Origin: Balneola sp.
GTDB lineage: Bacteria > Bacteroidota > Rhodothermia > Balneolales > Balneolaceae
DNA: 64,000 nucleotides
NCBI GenBank assembly: GCA_003712055.1
Contig: RHLJ01000001.1
Location: 124,001 to 188,000, forward strand
Reading direction: 5' to 3'
How positions within the stretch are numbered: position 1 is the stretch's first letter; each line of letters begins with the position of its first letter. Below are positions 33,802 to 38,948 of this stretch, in pieces. The notes below the pieces were generated by a model. The model saw nothing but the letters and a program-made list of their open reading frames with translations, did not search any database and was not told the DNA's origin. The position numbers and the translations under genes are program-made.

Positions 33802-35097
33802 TTAAGCTTGTCCTAAAAACACCTTAAAGTCAGCAAAATTTACATCAAATGGAATACTCTTTTTAGAAGCAGTAGTATTATTTATATGTGATGGGAGTTT
33901 AATTACTCCTCCAATTTCTTCAGAAACGGTTTCTTTGAACTTTACTGGATGGGCTGTTTCCAATACAACTCCAGCTCCATCATGTTGAGTGAGATAGTCT
34001 GACAGACCTAAATATCCTACCGCGCCATGAGGGTCAAGTATATATCCGGTTAAGGCGTATACTTGCTTTATAGCTATCCGAGTTGACTCGTCAGTATAGG
34101 CGAAACCACTAACCCTCTCAGACATTTTCGAATGAGAGTGATCGAATAGGTCAAGCATGCGAACGAAATTACTTGGATTTCCTACATCCATAGCGTTAGA
34201 GATAGTGGCCTGGCTTGCTTTAGGCTCAAAATCTCCCTTCCACAAATAGTTAGGTACTGAATCGTTGATATTTGTACTTGCTATAAATTTCTTAATTGGC
34301 AGTCCCATTTGTTGTGCAAGTAATCCAGCCGATAAGTTTCCAAAGTTACCGCTGGGGACAGAAAAAATAGCTTTATTACGTTTTTCAGATGGGAGTTGAG
34401 ACCAGGCGTAGAAGTAATAAATACTTTGCGGAAGTAAACGCGCAATATTGATTGAATTTGCGGAGGTAAGATTTAGCGTACTTCTTAATTCTTTATCTAA
34501 AAAAGCTTGTTTAACAAGATCCTGGCAATCATCAAAGGTACCATCGACTTCTAAAGCCGTAATATTTTCTCCAAGGGTAGTCATTTGCTGTTCTTGAAAA
34601 TGACTCACTTTCCCGGACGGGTATAGAATAATCACTTTAATATTTGGTACTCCAAAAAAGCCATTTGCTACCGCACTACCTGTATCTCCTGAAGTAGCTA
34701 CCAACACTGTGAGTTTTTTCTCTTTTTTCTTAGTGAAATGACTTAAACATCTCGCAAGAAATCTTGCGCCCACATCTTTAAAAGCTAGTGTTGGCCCATG
34801 GAATAGCTCGAGAGAGTAAATATTGTCTTTTATTGCTACAAGTGGGATTTCGAAGTTTAACGTTTCCTCAACAAGAATTTTTAATTCATTATCGGCAATT
34901 TCATTTCCCATAAATCTGGAAATAACTTCGTAGCCTATTTCGGATAATGAAAGCTGATCTATACCGTCAAAAAAAGAGGTAGGAAGCTCTGGTATTACCT
35001 CAGGCATATACAAGCCGTTATCCTCTGGCAATCCTTTAAATATTGCTTCTTCGAAGGATACAAAATCCGTTTTATTATTCGTGCTGTAGTATCTCAT
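33802..35097 (-). CDS. thrC: Threonine synthase
   Basis: A 431-residue PLP enzyme that turns O-phosphohomoserine into threonine. The PLP lysine is in LFHGPTLAFKDVGARF, and the phosphate-binding loop is in SVPSGNFGNLSAGLLA. The N-terminus MRYYSTNNKTDFVSFEEAI is the usual ThrC start. Its ATG overlaps the thrB stop by 4 bp, so translation is coupled. Third gene of thrABC. Confidence 0.97.
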   Translation of the reverse strand: MRYYSTNNKTDFVSFEEAIFKGLPEDNGLYMPEVIPELPTSFFDGIDQLSLSEIGYEVISRFMGNEIADNELKILVEETLNFEIPLVAIKDNIYSLELFHGPTLAFKDVGARFLARCLSHFTKKKEKKLTVLVATSGDTGSAVANGFFGVPNIKVIILYPSGKVSHFQEQQMTTLGENITALEVDGTFDDCQDLVKQAFLDKELRSTLNLTSANSINIARLLPQSIYYFYAWSQLPSEKRNKAIFSVPSGNFGNLSAGLLAQQMGLPIKKFIASTNINDSVPNYLWKGDFEPKASQATISNAMDVGNPSNFVRMLDLFDHSHSKMSERVSGFAYTDESTRIAIKQVYALTGYILDPHGAVGYLGLSDYLTQHDGAGVVLETAHPVKFKETVSEEIGGVIKLPSHINNTTASKKSIPFDVNFADFKVFLGQA

Positions 35098-36026
35098 TCT
35101 ATTATCTCTGTACCCCTGGGATTAATACCCGATAAATATACGTTAGCCTTGATGTCATGTGAGGTATATAGGTCTTTGAATTGAGTTCCTATATTTTGTG
35201 CAGTTTCTTCATCGTTGCACAAAGCAAAAATAGAAGGCCCAGAACCAGAAATACTACATCCCAAGGCTCCTGACTCTAAAGCCATAGATTTTGCGTCATT
35301 GAAAAGAGGGATAAGCATGGATCTAATAGGTTCTGCGATAACATCTTGTAACGATCGACCAATAAGGTCAAAATCAGGTTTAGCTAATCCGGCAACGAGT
35401 CCTCCCACATTTCCCCATTGAATAATGGCGTCTTTCAAAGACACTTCGCGTCTTAAAATCTTCTTTGAGTCGGAAGTTTTTACTTCAATAAGAGGATGAA
35501 CAACCGCTACTTTTAGCTCAGAAGGATAATCTAATTCTATAACATCCAGGGGATCGTAACTACGAACCAATGCAAAACCTCCCAAAATGGAAGGAGCAAC
35601 ATTATCTGCATGAGGGAGACCAGATGCTGCACGTTCACCTTCCATAGCAAAAGCAACTAGTTGTTGTTTAGTGAAAGGTTTTCCAAGTAATTCATTCATA
35701 GCATATACAGCTGCTGAAGAACTAGAAGCACTTGAACCTAAGCCACTTCCACCCATTACCTTCTTACAGATCTTAAAGCTAAATCCTGTTTCTTGATTAT
35801 GGTCAGTTGCATTGAGAAGAGCTTGCGCAGCTACAGTAGCTACATTCTTATCAGGCTGAAAGGGTAAGCCATCACACCCAGTAATTTCAGTGATAGTAAA
35901 GCCCGGAGTGTCAGTACGATTGATAGTGAGCTCATCTCCAATATGTTCTAATGCAAAGCCCATTACATCAAAGCCGCATGCCACATTTGCTACTGTTGCT
36001 GGTGCAAATACTTTTATTTGATCCAT
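35094..36026 (-). CDS. thrB: Homoserine kinase
   Basis: A 310-residue GHMP kinase that phosphorylates homoserine. The N-terminal VFAPATVANVACGFDVMGFA and the glycine-rich ATP loop GGSGLGSSASSSSAAVY are the standard signatures. SGSGPSIFALC near residue 258 is the C-terminal GHMP motif. One base separates it from thrA, and it overlaps thrC. Confidence 0.97.
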   Translation of the reverse strand: MDQIKVFAPATVANVACGFDVMGFALEHIGDELTINRTDTPGFTITEITGCDGLPFQPDKNVATVAAQALLNATDHNQETGFSFKICKKVMGGSGLGSSASSSSAAVYAMNELLGKPFTKQQLVAFAMEGERAASGLPHADNVAPSILGGFALVRSYDPLDVIELDYPSELKVAVVHPLIEVKTSDSKKILRREVSLKDAIIQWGNVGGLVAGLAKPDFDLIGRSLQDVIAEPIRSMLIPLFNDAKSMALESGALGCSISGSGPSIFALCNDEETAQNIGTQFKDLYTSHDIKANVYLSGINPRGTEIIE

Positions 36027-36027
36027 A

Positions 36028-38478
36028 TCAAGTGGAGGTAATTCTCATAACATCTGCAAATATACCTGAGGCTGTTACATCAGCTCCGGCTCCCGCACCC
36101 TTTACAACTAAGGGTTGTTCTGAATAACGGTTGGTATAATACAGCACTATATTGTCTTTTCCTTGAAGCTCATAGAAGGGATGGTCTATACCAAAGGTCT
36201 CCAAACCTGTTTTTGCATCGCCTTTTTCAAAGCTAGCCACATATTTAATGCGCTTACCTTCTGATGTTGCATTTTCATAGAGCTCCTTAAATACATGATC
36301 ATACTCATCGAGCTTAGCATAGAATTCTTCAATAGAAGAGGTATTCATGCACTCCTCAGGTACAAAGGCGTTATTTTCGATATCAGATAATTCAAGCTTG
36401 TGGCCGCTTTCTCTGGCAAGAATCAGGATTTTTCTCATTACATCCACACCGCTAAGATCCAACCTGGGATCGGGTTCGGTATACCCAGCAGCTTTTGCTT
36501 CTTTTACCACATCACTGAATTTTTGTGAACCATCGTAGGTGTTAAACAAGAAATTGAGGGTTCCTGAAAGAACAGCCTGGATTTTATGGATTCGATCTCC
36601 GCTCTTAAGTAAGTCACTTACTGTTGAAACTACCGGAAGACCAGCTCCCACATTAGTCTCAAACAAGAAACGTGTACGATATTTGGTTGCGATCTTCTTG
36701 AGGCCCAGATAAGTATCAAAATCAGATGAGCAGGCCACTTTATTAGGAGTCACTACCGAAATACTATTAGATAACACCTGTTTATAGAAAGAGGGGATAT
36801 CATCACTTGCAGTAGAATCGATAAAAATGCTGTTTCGCAGGTTCATATCTATCATTTCCCGTACAAAACCTTCTTGAGACATAGACTTTCCATACTCGTC
36901 TAAATCAGCTTCCCAGGTTGCTAAGTCAATAGTATCTGTATTGAATAGCATTTTGCGAGAATTAGCCAGCCCCGTAACACTAAGGTTTATCTGGAAAGCC
37001 TTAGCCAGAAATTCCTGCTGCTTCTTTATCTGCTCTAAAAAAGCTTTTCCTACATTTCCTACCCCGATCATAAATACATTGAATTTTCTAAGATCGGACA
37101 GGAAAAAGCTCTCATGGATAGAATTCAATGATTTGGCAAGGTGTCTTTTTTCGACTACCACAGAAATATTTAGTTCTGTTGATCCCTGAGCTATCGCCTT
37201 TACATTAATTCCATTCTCGCTCAAAGTTTCAAAAAGGGTAGCACTTACGCCAACCTGTTCTCTCATTTTTGTTCCAACTAATGCAACAATAGATAGCCCG
37301 GTTTCTACTGCCAAAGGGTTTACTTTGTGCTGCTGAATCTCATTTCTGAATTCGTTTTCAATGCTAGTTTTAGCTCTCTCAGCATCCATTCTATCAATAC
37401 CAACAGTGATAGTATGCTCAGACGAAGCTTGTGTGATCATGATCACATTAATAGCCTCTCTACTTAACGCGGAGAATAATCGATAGGAGAAATTAGGTAC
37501 TGCTACCATTCCGGAACCTGAAAGTGTACACAGTGCTACTTCGTCAATCGAAGAAATACCCTTTATCCAACTTCCGTTAATTTCACCCTCTTTAGAGATT
37601 CGTGTTCCAGAATCATTAGCGGCAAAGGTATTCTTTATCAGAATAGGAATTTCTTTGTCCAGTACTGGCTGAATGGTAGGGGGATAAATTACCTTTGCTC
37701 CGAAGTGAGAAAGCTCCATAGCTTCTTCATAGGATAACTCTGAAATGGTATGAGCAAGGGGAACCAACTTTGGATTGGCGGTCATCATTCCACTAACATC
37801 GGTCCAGATCTCAAGAGCTTCTGCTTCTAATGCAGCTGCAAGCAGGGAGGCAGTATAGTCTGAGCCCCCACGTCCCAATGTGGTTATCTGGTTACCAGTA
37901 TTTGAAGAAGCAAGAAAGCCAGGACAAATGCTAACCTGTGAATGCTTTTCAAAATCCTTGCGAATATTCTGAAAGGTTAAGTCACGATCAACAACCGCAT
38001 TTCCAAATTGAGCATCCGTTTTTATAAGCTTTCTGGGATTGAGTAATGAGGTATCTATATCATCAGCCTTGAAGTAGTCTTTAATTATTTCTGAGGAAAG
38101 ACGTTCTCCAAAACTTAGAATTTGGTCGCTTGAACGGGGAGAAAGTTCGCGAATAAGGAACACCCCTCGGCAGATATCTTCTAAATCATTAAGAAGGAAT
38201 TTAACCCTTGTAAGGGTATTGCTGCGTTGAGCTACAGGGATAAGAACATTGCAAAGAGTAATATGGCGCAGTTCAATTTCTTCAAGAATTTCGGAGTAGC
38301 TTTCAACTCCGTTTTCTGCAAGTGAAGCACATTTTTCAAGATCGTTGGTAACGCCTCCGAGTGCAGAGACTACCACAACCAATGGGGAAGAAGCAGCCTT
38401 TTCCTTAACTATCTTTCGTACTAAATCGAGGCTTTCTGCACTGCCAACGGAAGTGCCCCCAAATTTTAAAACGAGCAT
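36028..38478 (-). CDS. thrA: Bifunctional aspartate kinase / homoserine dehydrogenase I
   Basis: An 816-residue fused enzyme for the first and third steps of the aspartate pathway. Aspartokinase occupies residues 1-290 (KFGGTSVGSAESL, SFGERLSSEI). Two ACT domains at about residues 315-455 are the place for threonine feedback. Homoserine dehydrogenase begins at FMIGVGNVGKAFLEQIKK (NAD(P)-binding), with the catalytic region NVGAGLPVVSTVSDLLKSGD and GTLNFLFNTYDG. The length equals the enterobacterial ThrA (about 820 residues). It follows a leader with a candidate attenuation peptide. Confidence 0.98.
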   Translation of the reverse strand: MLVLKFGGTSVGSAESLDLVRKIVKEKAASSPLVVVVSALGGVTNDLEKCASLAENGVESYSEILEEIELRHITLCNVLIPVAQRSNTLTRVKFLLNDLEDICRGVFLIRELSPRSSDQILSFGERLSSEIIKDYFKADDIDTSLLNPRKLIKTDAQFGNAVVDRDLTFQNIRKDFEKHSQVSICPGFLASSNTGNQITTLGRGGSDYTASLLAAALEAEALEIWTDVSGMMTANPKLVPLAHTISELSYEEAMELSHFGAKVIYPPTIQPVLDKEIPILIKNTFAANDSGTRISKEGEINGSWIKGISSIDEVALCTLSGSGMVAVPNFSYRLFSALSREAINVIMITQASSEHTITVGIDRMDAERAKTSIENEFRNEIQQHKVNPLAVETGLSIVALVGTKMREQVGVSATLFETLSENGINVKAIAQGSTELNISVVVEKRHLAKSLNSIHESFFLSDLRKFNVFMIGVGNVGKAFLEQIKKQQEFLAKAFQINLSVTGLANSRKMLFNTDTIDLATWEADLDEYGKSMSQEGFVREMIDMNLRNSIFIDSTASDDIPSFYKQVLSNSISVVTPNKVACSSDFDTYLGLKKIATKYRTRFLFETNVGAGLPVVSTVSDLLKSGDRIHKIQAVLSGTLNFLFNTYDGSQKFSDVVKEAKAAGYTEPDPRLDLSGVDVMRKILILARESGHKLELSDIENNAFVPEECMNTSSIEEFYAKLDEYDHVFKELYENATSEGKRIKYVASFEKGDAKTGLETFGIDHPFYELQGKDNIVLYYTNRYSEQPLVVKGAGAGADVTASGIFADVMRITST

Positions 38479-38563
38479 AATAAATTATCGATGAATATTG
38501 TGAATTGAGTGAGAGTGATTCGAAAGGTAGGAATAGTTCCTAATAGGTGATATGAAAATATGA

Positions 38564-38577
38564 ACCCCCTAAGGGGT
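38564..38577. promoter_or_regulatory. Short hairpin at the end of the thr leader peptide
   Basis: On the minus strand ACCCC-TTAG-GGGGT can form a 5-bp GC stem that contains the leader stop codon. It may take part in ribosome-dependent switching. Another small stem, TAGGAA-TAG-TTCCTA, lies at 38528-38542. Neither has a clean T-tract, so a classic terminator is not proven. Confidence 0.35.
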
Positions 38578-38649
38578 AATAGTAGAAATCATAGTAATGC
38601 AGCACATTACCGAAGGGAGAGAGGTGATATTTCTTTGGTTCATTTTCAT
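38569..38649 (-). CDS. thrL: Candidate threonine operon leader peptide
   Basis: A 26-codon open frame beginning ATG at 38649 and ending TAG at 38571-38569, placed between the tRNA-Leu terminator and thrA. Its second half encodes CCITMISTITP, with three Ile, three Thr and one Met in eight residues. This is the same amino-acid logic as enterobacterial thrL, which responds to charged Thr and Ile tRNA. The gap to thrA is 90 nt. Translation is inferred from composition, position and a predicted promoter only; the family is not recognisable by sequence because such peptides are not conserved. Confidence 0.6.
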   Translation of the reverse strand: MKMNQRNITSLPSVMCCITMISTITP

Positions 38650-38655
38650 CACTGG

Positions 38656-38686
38656 CAAGTCTATCTCTTTTGGAGGTTAAAGTAAA
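38656..38686 (-). promoter_or_regulatory. Candidate promoter of the thr operon
   Basis: Reading the minus strand: TTTA (38686-38683), 19 nt, TAGACTTG (38663-38656). Each box is one mismatch from the Bacteroidota consensus. The leader ATG at 38649 is only 6 nt after the -7 box, so the transcript would be leaderless or nearly so. Confidence 0.5.
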
Positions 38687-38694
38687 CCCCGAAA

Positions 38695-38729
38695 TAAAAA
38701 AGCCTCCAAGTAAATACTTGAAGGCTTTT
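38695..38729 (-). terminator. Rho-independent terminator of tRNA-Leu
   Basis: On the minus strand AAAGCCTTCAAGT and ACTTGGAGGCTTT form a 13-bp stem (one G-U) with a short AT loop, followed by TTTTATTT. It ends the tRNA transcript before the thr leader. Confidence 0.8.
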
Positions 38730-38731
38730 CG

Positions 38732-38813
38732 TACCAAAGGAGGGACTCGAACCCTCACTCCCGAAGGAACACGATTTTGAGTCGTGCGCGTCTACCAGTT
38801 CCGCCACTTTGGC
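38732..38813 (-). tRNA. tRNA-Leu (anticodon CAA)
   Basis: An 82-nt class II tRNA. The acceptor stem GCCAAAG pairs with CTTTGGT (one G-U at the end) and the discriminator is A. The D arm contains GGCGGAACTGGTAGACGC. The anticodon stem CACGA/TCGTG encloses loop CTCAAAA, giving anticodon CAA for UUG codons. The variable arm TTCCTTCGGGAGTG is long, as expected for Leu. The T arm is GAGGG-TTCGAGT-CCCTC. CCA is not encoded; the next bases are CGA. Confidence 0.96.
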
Positions 38814-38872: not shown

Positions 38873-38948
38873 ATCCCGGACTCGATCAGGGATCTGAACT
38901 ACATCGTTTTTCCTTCCCCTACAGATCCCGCATCAAGTGCGGGATGAC
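38873..38948. repeat. Dispersed palindrome, family B, long copy
   Basis: A 76-bp element. The outer arms ATCCCGGACTCGATCAGGGA and the complement of GATCCCGCATCAAGTGCGGG pair with some mismatches, and the inner GATCT/AGATC arms match. It lies in the spacer between tRNA-Leu and galE, beyond the 3' end of galE, where it could help end transcription. Confidence 0.65.

Follow-up and report, generated by a model that had tools for sequence, protein, structure and literature searches.

Our study identified, directly upstream of the thrABC operon on the minus strand of a Balneolaceae (Bacteroidota) genome of 3.63 Mb, a leader that is probably a ribosome-mediated attenuator of thrABC sensing charged Thr- and Ile-tRNA, in which a hairpin that we call P1 would act as the "1:2" hairpin and which would operate without a U-tract terminator. 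From the comparison of sequences, we give this reading a probability of about 0.8. The comparison establishes the leader open reading frame (ORF), its codon bias, P1, a second hairpin (P2), the spacing between promoter and AUG, and the lack of an intrinsic terminator, and 13 genomes belonging to five Balneolaceae genera have the leader in full (promoter, AUG, Thr/Ile run, P1, CAUAUC, P2). The features found in the window, that is, the whole stretch of 64,000 nucleotides that was analysed, are collected in Table 1. The 5' neighbours of the leader are a tRNA-Leu gene (38732-38813), which is followed by an apparent terminator hairpin at about 38690-38728 (read by eye), and galE; the palindromic sequence CCCGCATCAAGTGCGGGATGA, with one copy in the window, lies between galE and the tRNA gene at 38927-38947.

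Table 1. Features of the thrABC locus and its leader, in window coordinates.
Feature	Position	Strand	Remarks
thrC, threonine synthase	33802..35097	-	NCBIfam TIGR00260
thrB, homoserine kinase	35094..36026	-	NCBIfam TIGR00191
thrA, bifunctional aspartate kinase/homoserine dehydrogenase I	36028..38478	-	NCBIfam NF006959, 1021 bits
C-rich, G-poor stretch between P1 and thrA	38479..38563	-	rut-like composition; C/(C+G) 0.84
P2 hairpin UAGGAA[CUA]UUCCUA	38528..38542	-	without U-tract; 13/13 Balneolaceae, same place, arms changed yet paired
Linker motif CATATC	38549..38554	-	9 nt 3' of P1; invariant in 13 Balneolaceae; CATAT[CA]-like across Bacteroidota
P1 hairpin ACCCC[UUAG]GGGGU	38564..38577	-	leader stop codon in loop; invariant in 13 Balneolaceae, compensatory arm swap and variants elsewhere
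Leader ORF MKMNQRNITSLPSVMCCITMISTITP	38569..38649	-	Thr/Ile codons at 3' end; stop TAG 38571..38569; homologous Thr/Ile-rich frames in 12 more Balneolaceae genomes
Upstream copy AATATCACC of the CATATCACC motif	38623..38631	-	18 nt into leader ORF
-10-like box TAGACTTG	38656..38663	-	5/6 fixed positions of the Bacteroidota sigma-A box TAnnTTTG
Conserved upstream promoter element TTTAC, part of GTTTACTTT	38682..38686	-	in most of 13 Balneolaceae leaders (L013: TTTACAT), by alignment

The leader reading frame and its promoter

The leader ORF comprises 26 codons, ends in ITMISTITP and leaves 90 nt between its end and the thrA ATG (38478). Leader-peptide attenuators are marked by a short ORF in which codons for the downstream operon's amino acid abound, and this one alone reaches at least six Thr/Ile in 10 residues among 138 upstream regions of the genome (0 of the 137 others), a control set drawn from the window together with 400 kb of its genome. 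The earlier note had pointed to this 26-codon Thr/Ile frame before thrA and had proposed looking for it in close relatives; the search was made, and the frame recurs in 13 Balneolaceae genomes. At 6/10, the Thr/Ile content of the window leader is weaker than that of most relatives (8-10), whose richer peptides end, for example, in MTMITTTTITTIITTP (L018) or TNTTITITITTP (L024). This weaker content and the length of just 26 codons could be taken to mean that the ORF is a product of chance in the spacer or encodes a small protein with a separate role, both of which we nevertheless consider extremely improbable, given that the Thr/Ile codons and the layout are conserved across the phylum and that the N-terminal half of the peptide diverges freely among relatives, unlike that of a functional protein. 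The continuation of the frame past its stop codon via a +1 frameshift was rejected: it is open in some relatives, and 1-nt indels break it in others (read by eye). In 14 leaders from several families (the window and 13 others), the leader ORF contains a second copy of the CATATCAC motif 18-19 nt from its start.

A candidate promoter, TTTA-N19-TAGACTTG, is located at 38686..38656. In Flavobacterium psychrophilum the sigma-A box TAnnTTTG occupies positions -12 to -5 (PMC9723704), and by this rule transcription in the window is predicted to start 2 nt ahead of the leader ATG, at about 38651. The Balneolaceae leaders carry TTTAC, then about 18 nt, and then a TA[GC]ACT-like box (TAGCATT in L017, TAATCTT in L021), with a box-to-ATG distance, counted from the T of the box, of 11-16 nt in 12 of the 13 (read by eye) and of 23 nt in L013; the start codon is ATG, or GTG in L021. 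In other families, 22 leaders have a perfect TAnnTTTG at a distance of 12-20 nt from the ATG, which predicts 5' leaders of 0-8 nt; these 22 are not independent cases, since one genus supplies many of them. Since the box is found 11-20 nt before the AUG almost throughout, the leader transcript is predicted to be leaderless or nearly so, as the earlier note had suggested from the window; the promoter-AUG spacing behind that suggestion recurs in Balneolaceae leaders and in leaders of other families. It is important to note that neither box counts nor a dyad search in the 138 upstream regions of this genome yielded a clear genome-wide promoter consensus, and promoter boxes are hardly enriched in these regions, so that the predicted start site relies on the cross-species spacing and on the consensus of other Bacteroidota. 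Near-leaderless starts would be unusual for a phylum in which transcripts mostly have longer leaders: about 3.7% of the 5' UTRs of Bacteroides thetaiotaomicron are shorter than 10 nt, and 87% of the transcript leaders of Flavobacterium johnsoniae are longer than 10 nt.

The hairpins and the stretch before thrA

A GC stem spanning the stop codon had been noted in the window, and it proved to recur in 13 Balneolaceae genomes with zero differences in its sequence (ACCCCUUAGGGGGU / ACCCCTTAGGGGGT) and with the leader TAG within the loop. In several families P1 comes directly after the Thr codons with other loops or outer pairs (UACCCC/GGGGUA, AACCCC/GGGGUU, ACAACCC/GGGUUGU), the stop codon being placed either inside the loop or just 3' of P1. 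In family f39 the arms are swapped (ACGGG[GUAA]CCCGU), CCC:GGG becoming GGG:CCC with the pairing kept, and such a swap at three neighbouring pairs favours an RNA hairpin over a DNA site or a Thr-Pro requirement of the peptide. The evidence here is the arm swap and not the percentage of paired positions, as the loci were preselected for at least 4 pairs. CCCCTTAGGGG, almost a palindrome and unchanged throughout the family, would also fit a palindromic DNA operator bound by a repressor, a reading that we judge very improbable, because the P1 sequence is unique in the genome, adjoins the final Thr codon, shares bases with the stop codon of the leader and undergoes compensatory arm swaps while loop and stop position vary.

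The gap between P1 and CATATC is about 8-9 nt in the 13 Balneolaceae leaders, and in most P1 leaders the CATAT motif is at +22 to +24 relative to the final Thr codon. It is followed, in 13 of 13 Balneolaceae leaders, by the P2 loop at 13.1 +/- 1.0 nt from CATATC, as against 4.8 of 13 with a spread of 6.1 in shuffled sequences, and the arms of P2 co-vary (UAGGAA/UUCCUA, UGGGAG/UUCCCG, CGGCA/UGCCG, UUGGCA/UGCCAA). With P1 and P2, the leader has the conserved hairpins beside control codons by which leader-peptide attenuators are recognized. From P2 to thrA the 13 leaders are mostly unstructured; the stretch before thrA in the window contains 21 C versus 4 G, its C/(C+G) is the highest of the 138 upstream regions, and the ratio ranges from 0.66 to 0.84 over the 13 leaders. 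In one genus and one neighbour (L018-L025), a conserved AAGTCATTAA-like block is present about 20-40 nt before thrA.

In P1-type leaders, the thrA ATG follows the last Thr codon of the leader at anything from 81 to 201 nt, while the P1-CATAT-P2 arrangement is fixed. This variation bears on the suggestion, made in the earlier note, of a switch acting on thrA translation, in which the leader ribosome would gate the thrA start codon by alternative pairing. Such translational attenuation would suit a leader with no terminator, and mycobacterial leaderless Cys-rich uORFs are cited as translation attenuators in PMC13236596; it is disfavoured by the variable distance, by the lack of any predicted pairing with the thrA start common to the relatives, and by the fact that Flavobacteria do not depend on Shine-Dalgarno sequences to begin translation (PMC6847099, PMC9723704). 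We therefore regard control of thrA translation as quite unlikely.

A further proposal was that the RNA around the transcription start pairs with the region of the CATATC linker. In the window this pairing exists and is longer than had been described: the 5' end pairs with the CATATTTTCATATCAC region, GUGAUGAAAAUGAACC with GGUUCAUAUUUUCAUAUCAC, at -15.7 kcal/mol. The pairing is not conserved, however, the family mean being -6.1 compared with -5.9 when partners are swapped and -6.5 in shuffled sequences, and it was rejected as a switch because a leader's own pair is energetically no better than swapped or shuffled ones across the family; at most, it is a feature of the window species. Folds of the window leader alone with the ribosome-covered part masked suggested no clear switch, and the upstream stem before the Thr run differs between genera (read by eye).

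Distribution of the leader and two solutions for one gene

Within the Balneolaceae the distribution is patchy, the leader being found upstream of 13 of about 70 thrA genes while most other thrA of the family are without it. A covariance model recovered the same 13 out of 92 family genomes, each match directly upstream of thrA and none with a second site, and no further genome of the class Rhodothermia matched. Scanning 257 Gb of prokaryotic contigs with the selective 20-base pattern ACCCCTTAGGGGGTN{8,13}CATATC, which demanded both P1 and CATATC, returned 13 contigs, nine of them titled Balneolaceae, Gracilimonas, Balneola or Rhodothermia; the four titled only Bacteroidetes or Bacteroidales all have the pattern ahead of a thrA that shares about 48-50% identity with that of the window. 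No match to the leader was present in viral contigs. The same P1 is also present in leaders that precede thrA in several further Bacteroidota families, and all the covariance-model matches checked across Bacteroidota precede thrA except for one weak match (L134, E 0.012), which has no adjacent thrA and is probably due to chance. In a sample of 60 Bacteroidia thrA upstream regions taken irrespective of any leader, 37% contain a Thr/Ile ORF, compared with 0.6% in shuffles and 0% of the other upstream regions of the window genome.

The absence of a classic T-tract, already remarked on for the window, extends well beyond it. No intrinsic terminator (hairpin and U-tract) was detected between the leader ORF and thrA in the window or in the scanned Balneolaceae leaders, and a terminator scan of 62 Thr/Ile leaders found none before thrA in any of the 46 P1 leaders (0.3% in shuffles). 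In the same scan, 8 of the 16 non-P1 leaders have a strong terminator, all of them in family f23. These eight leaders (L164, L168, L169, L172, L179, L181, L185, and L187), of the TTG type and upstream of thrA, have canonical terminators and are, judging by their sequences, classical attenuators in the same phylum. Like the window leader, those of f23 have their Thr/Ile run ahead of a thrA of the same bifunctional type; unlike it, their peptide continues with TTG..., P1 is missing, and a strong GC hairpin with a U-tract terminator follows. The contrast between the 46 P1 leaders and those of f23 indicates that leaders of two kinds precede one and the same gene, the window representing the terminator-less kind.

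The f23 leaders also bear on the idea that a degenerate intrinsic terminator, working without a proper U-tract and equivalent to the 3:4 hairpin of classical attenuation, is provided by P2 (or P1). P2 is conserved where a terminator would be expected, and the canonical terminators of f23 occupy a comparable place; even so, none of the 46 P1 leaders passes a scan that detects 8 of 16 non-P1 leaders, and the U-run after CATAT in family f31 resembles the 5' arm of a U/A hairpin and not a tail (by eye). We consider this explanation unlikely, although better placed than translational attenuation.

Taken over the phylum, the P1 leaders might form a Bacteroidota-wide class of Thr/Ile attenuators, with a leaderless ORF, a stop-codon hairpin, a CATAT pause site, Rho-dependent or otherwise new termination and no intrinsic terminator, that coexists with the terminator-bearing family; we put this forward tentatively, as somewhat less than evenly probable. 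The leader RNA is widespread and clearly covarying, and it is without the part usually held to define such attenuators. Since P1 leaders without and f23 leaders with a terminator stand before the same gene, they constitute a natural experiment on how attenuation ends transcription.

Known systems and a proposed course of attenuation

As in Escherichia coli thrL, a Thr/Ile-rich peptide is encoded directly before thrABC, and the hairpin whose loop contains the stop codon occupies the place of 1:2. The window leader differs from thrL in having no intrinsic terminator, in being predicted (near-)leaderless, and in a peptide that ends in TP at the ACCCC/GGGGU hairpin. A search of Rfam, including the Thr_leader covariance model (presumably RF00506), returned no match to the window leader, and the weak E-value matches are attributable to chance. 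The trp genes are preceded by the Bacteroid-trp RNA motif. This motif (RF01692), a candidate cis-regulatory RNA of Bacteroidetes (PMC2864571), likewise gave no Rfam match to the window leader. The mycobacterial polycysteine uORF attenuators (Canestrari 2020, as cited in PMC13236596) resemble our case in that a leaderless ORF senses an amino acid, and differ in using Cys instead of Thr/Ile and, according to PMC13236596, in controlling translation.

Regulation of amino-acid operons in Bacteroidota has been little described so far. Until a 2010 survey reported such a system in Firmicutes, leader-peptide systems had, according to that survey, been known only in Proteobacteria and Actinobacteria (PMC2965389), and the main text of a study of F. 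psychrophilum mentions strong clues for leader-peptide attenuation before amino-acid operons that it leaves unnamed (PMC9723704); thrA may be among those candidates. We found no description of a Bacteroidota thr leader in the open-licence literature.

In the course that we propose, transcription would start from zero to a few nucleotides before the leader AUG, as the conserved box suggests, and a ribosome would load at the 5' AUG and trail the RNA polymerase. P1 would then fold ahead of the ribosome while the polymerase, about 10 nt onward, is near CAUAUC, possibly as a pause hairpin. The distance between P1 and CATATC is similar to that between hairpin and polymerase in hairpin-stabilised pauses such as that of his, and the 1:2 hairpin of trp- and thr-type attenuators abuts the sensing codons and contains the stop codon. 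When Thr or Ile is scarce, the ribosome would stall on the codons abutting P1 and cover its 5' arm, so that transcription proceeds into thrABC; when both are sufficient, it would reach the stop codon and depart. It must be considered, against this attenuator model, that a ribosome on the stop codon would cover P1.

After the departure of the ribosome, the transcript would end in the C-rich, G-poor stretch, with Rho as the likeliest agent in place of a U-tract terminator; we give termination by Rho, or by another means independent of a U-tract, close to an even chance. The genome encodes a full-length Rho (G000:C1:680748-682244), and its presence together with the C-rich, G-poor stretch is the combination sought in Rho-dependent attenuators, which is suggestive only; such a composition also simply leaves the RNA unstructured. 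A second, shorter Rho-like gene is located at G000:C3:406587-407693 (L199).
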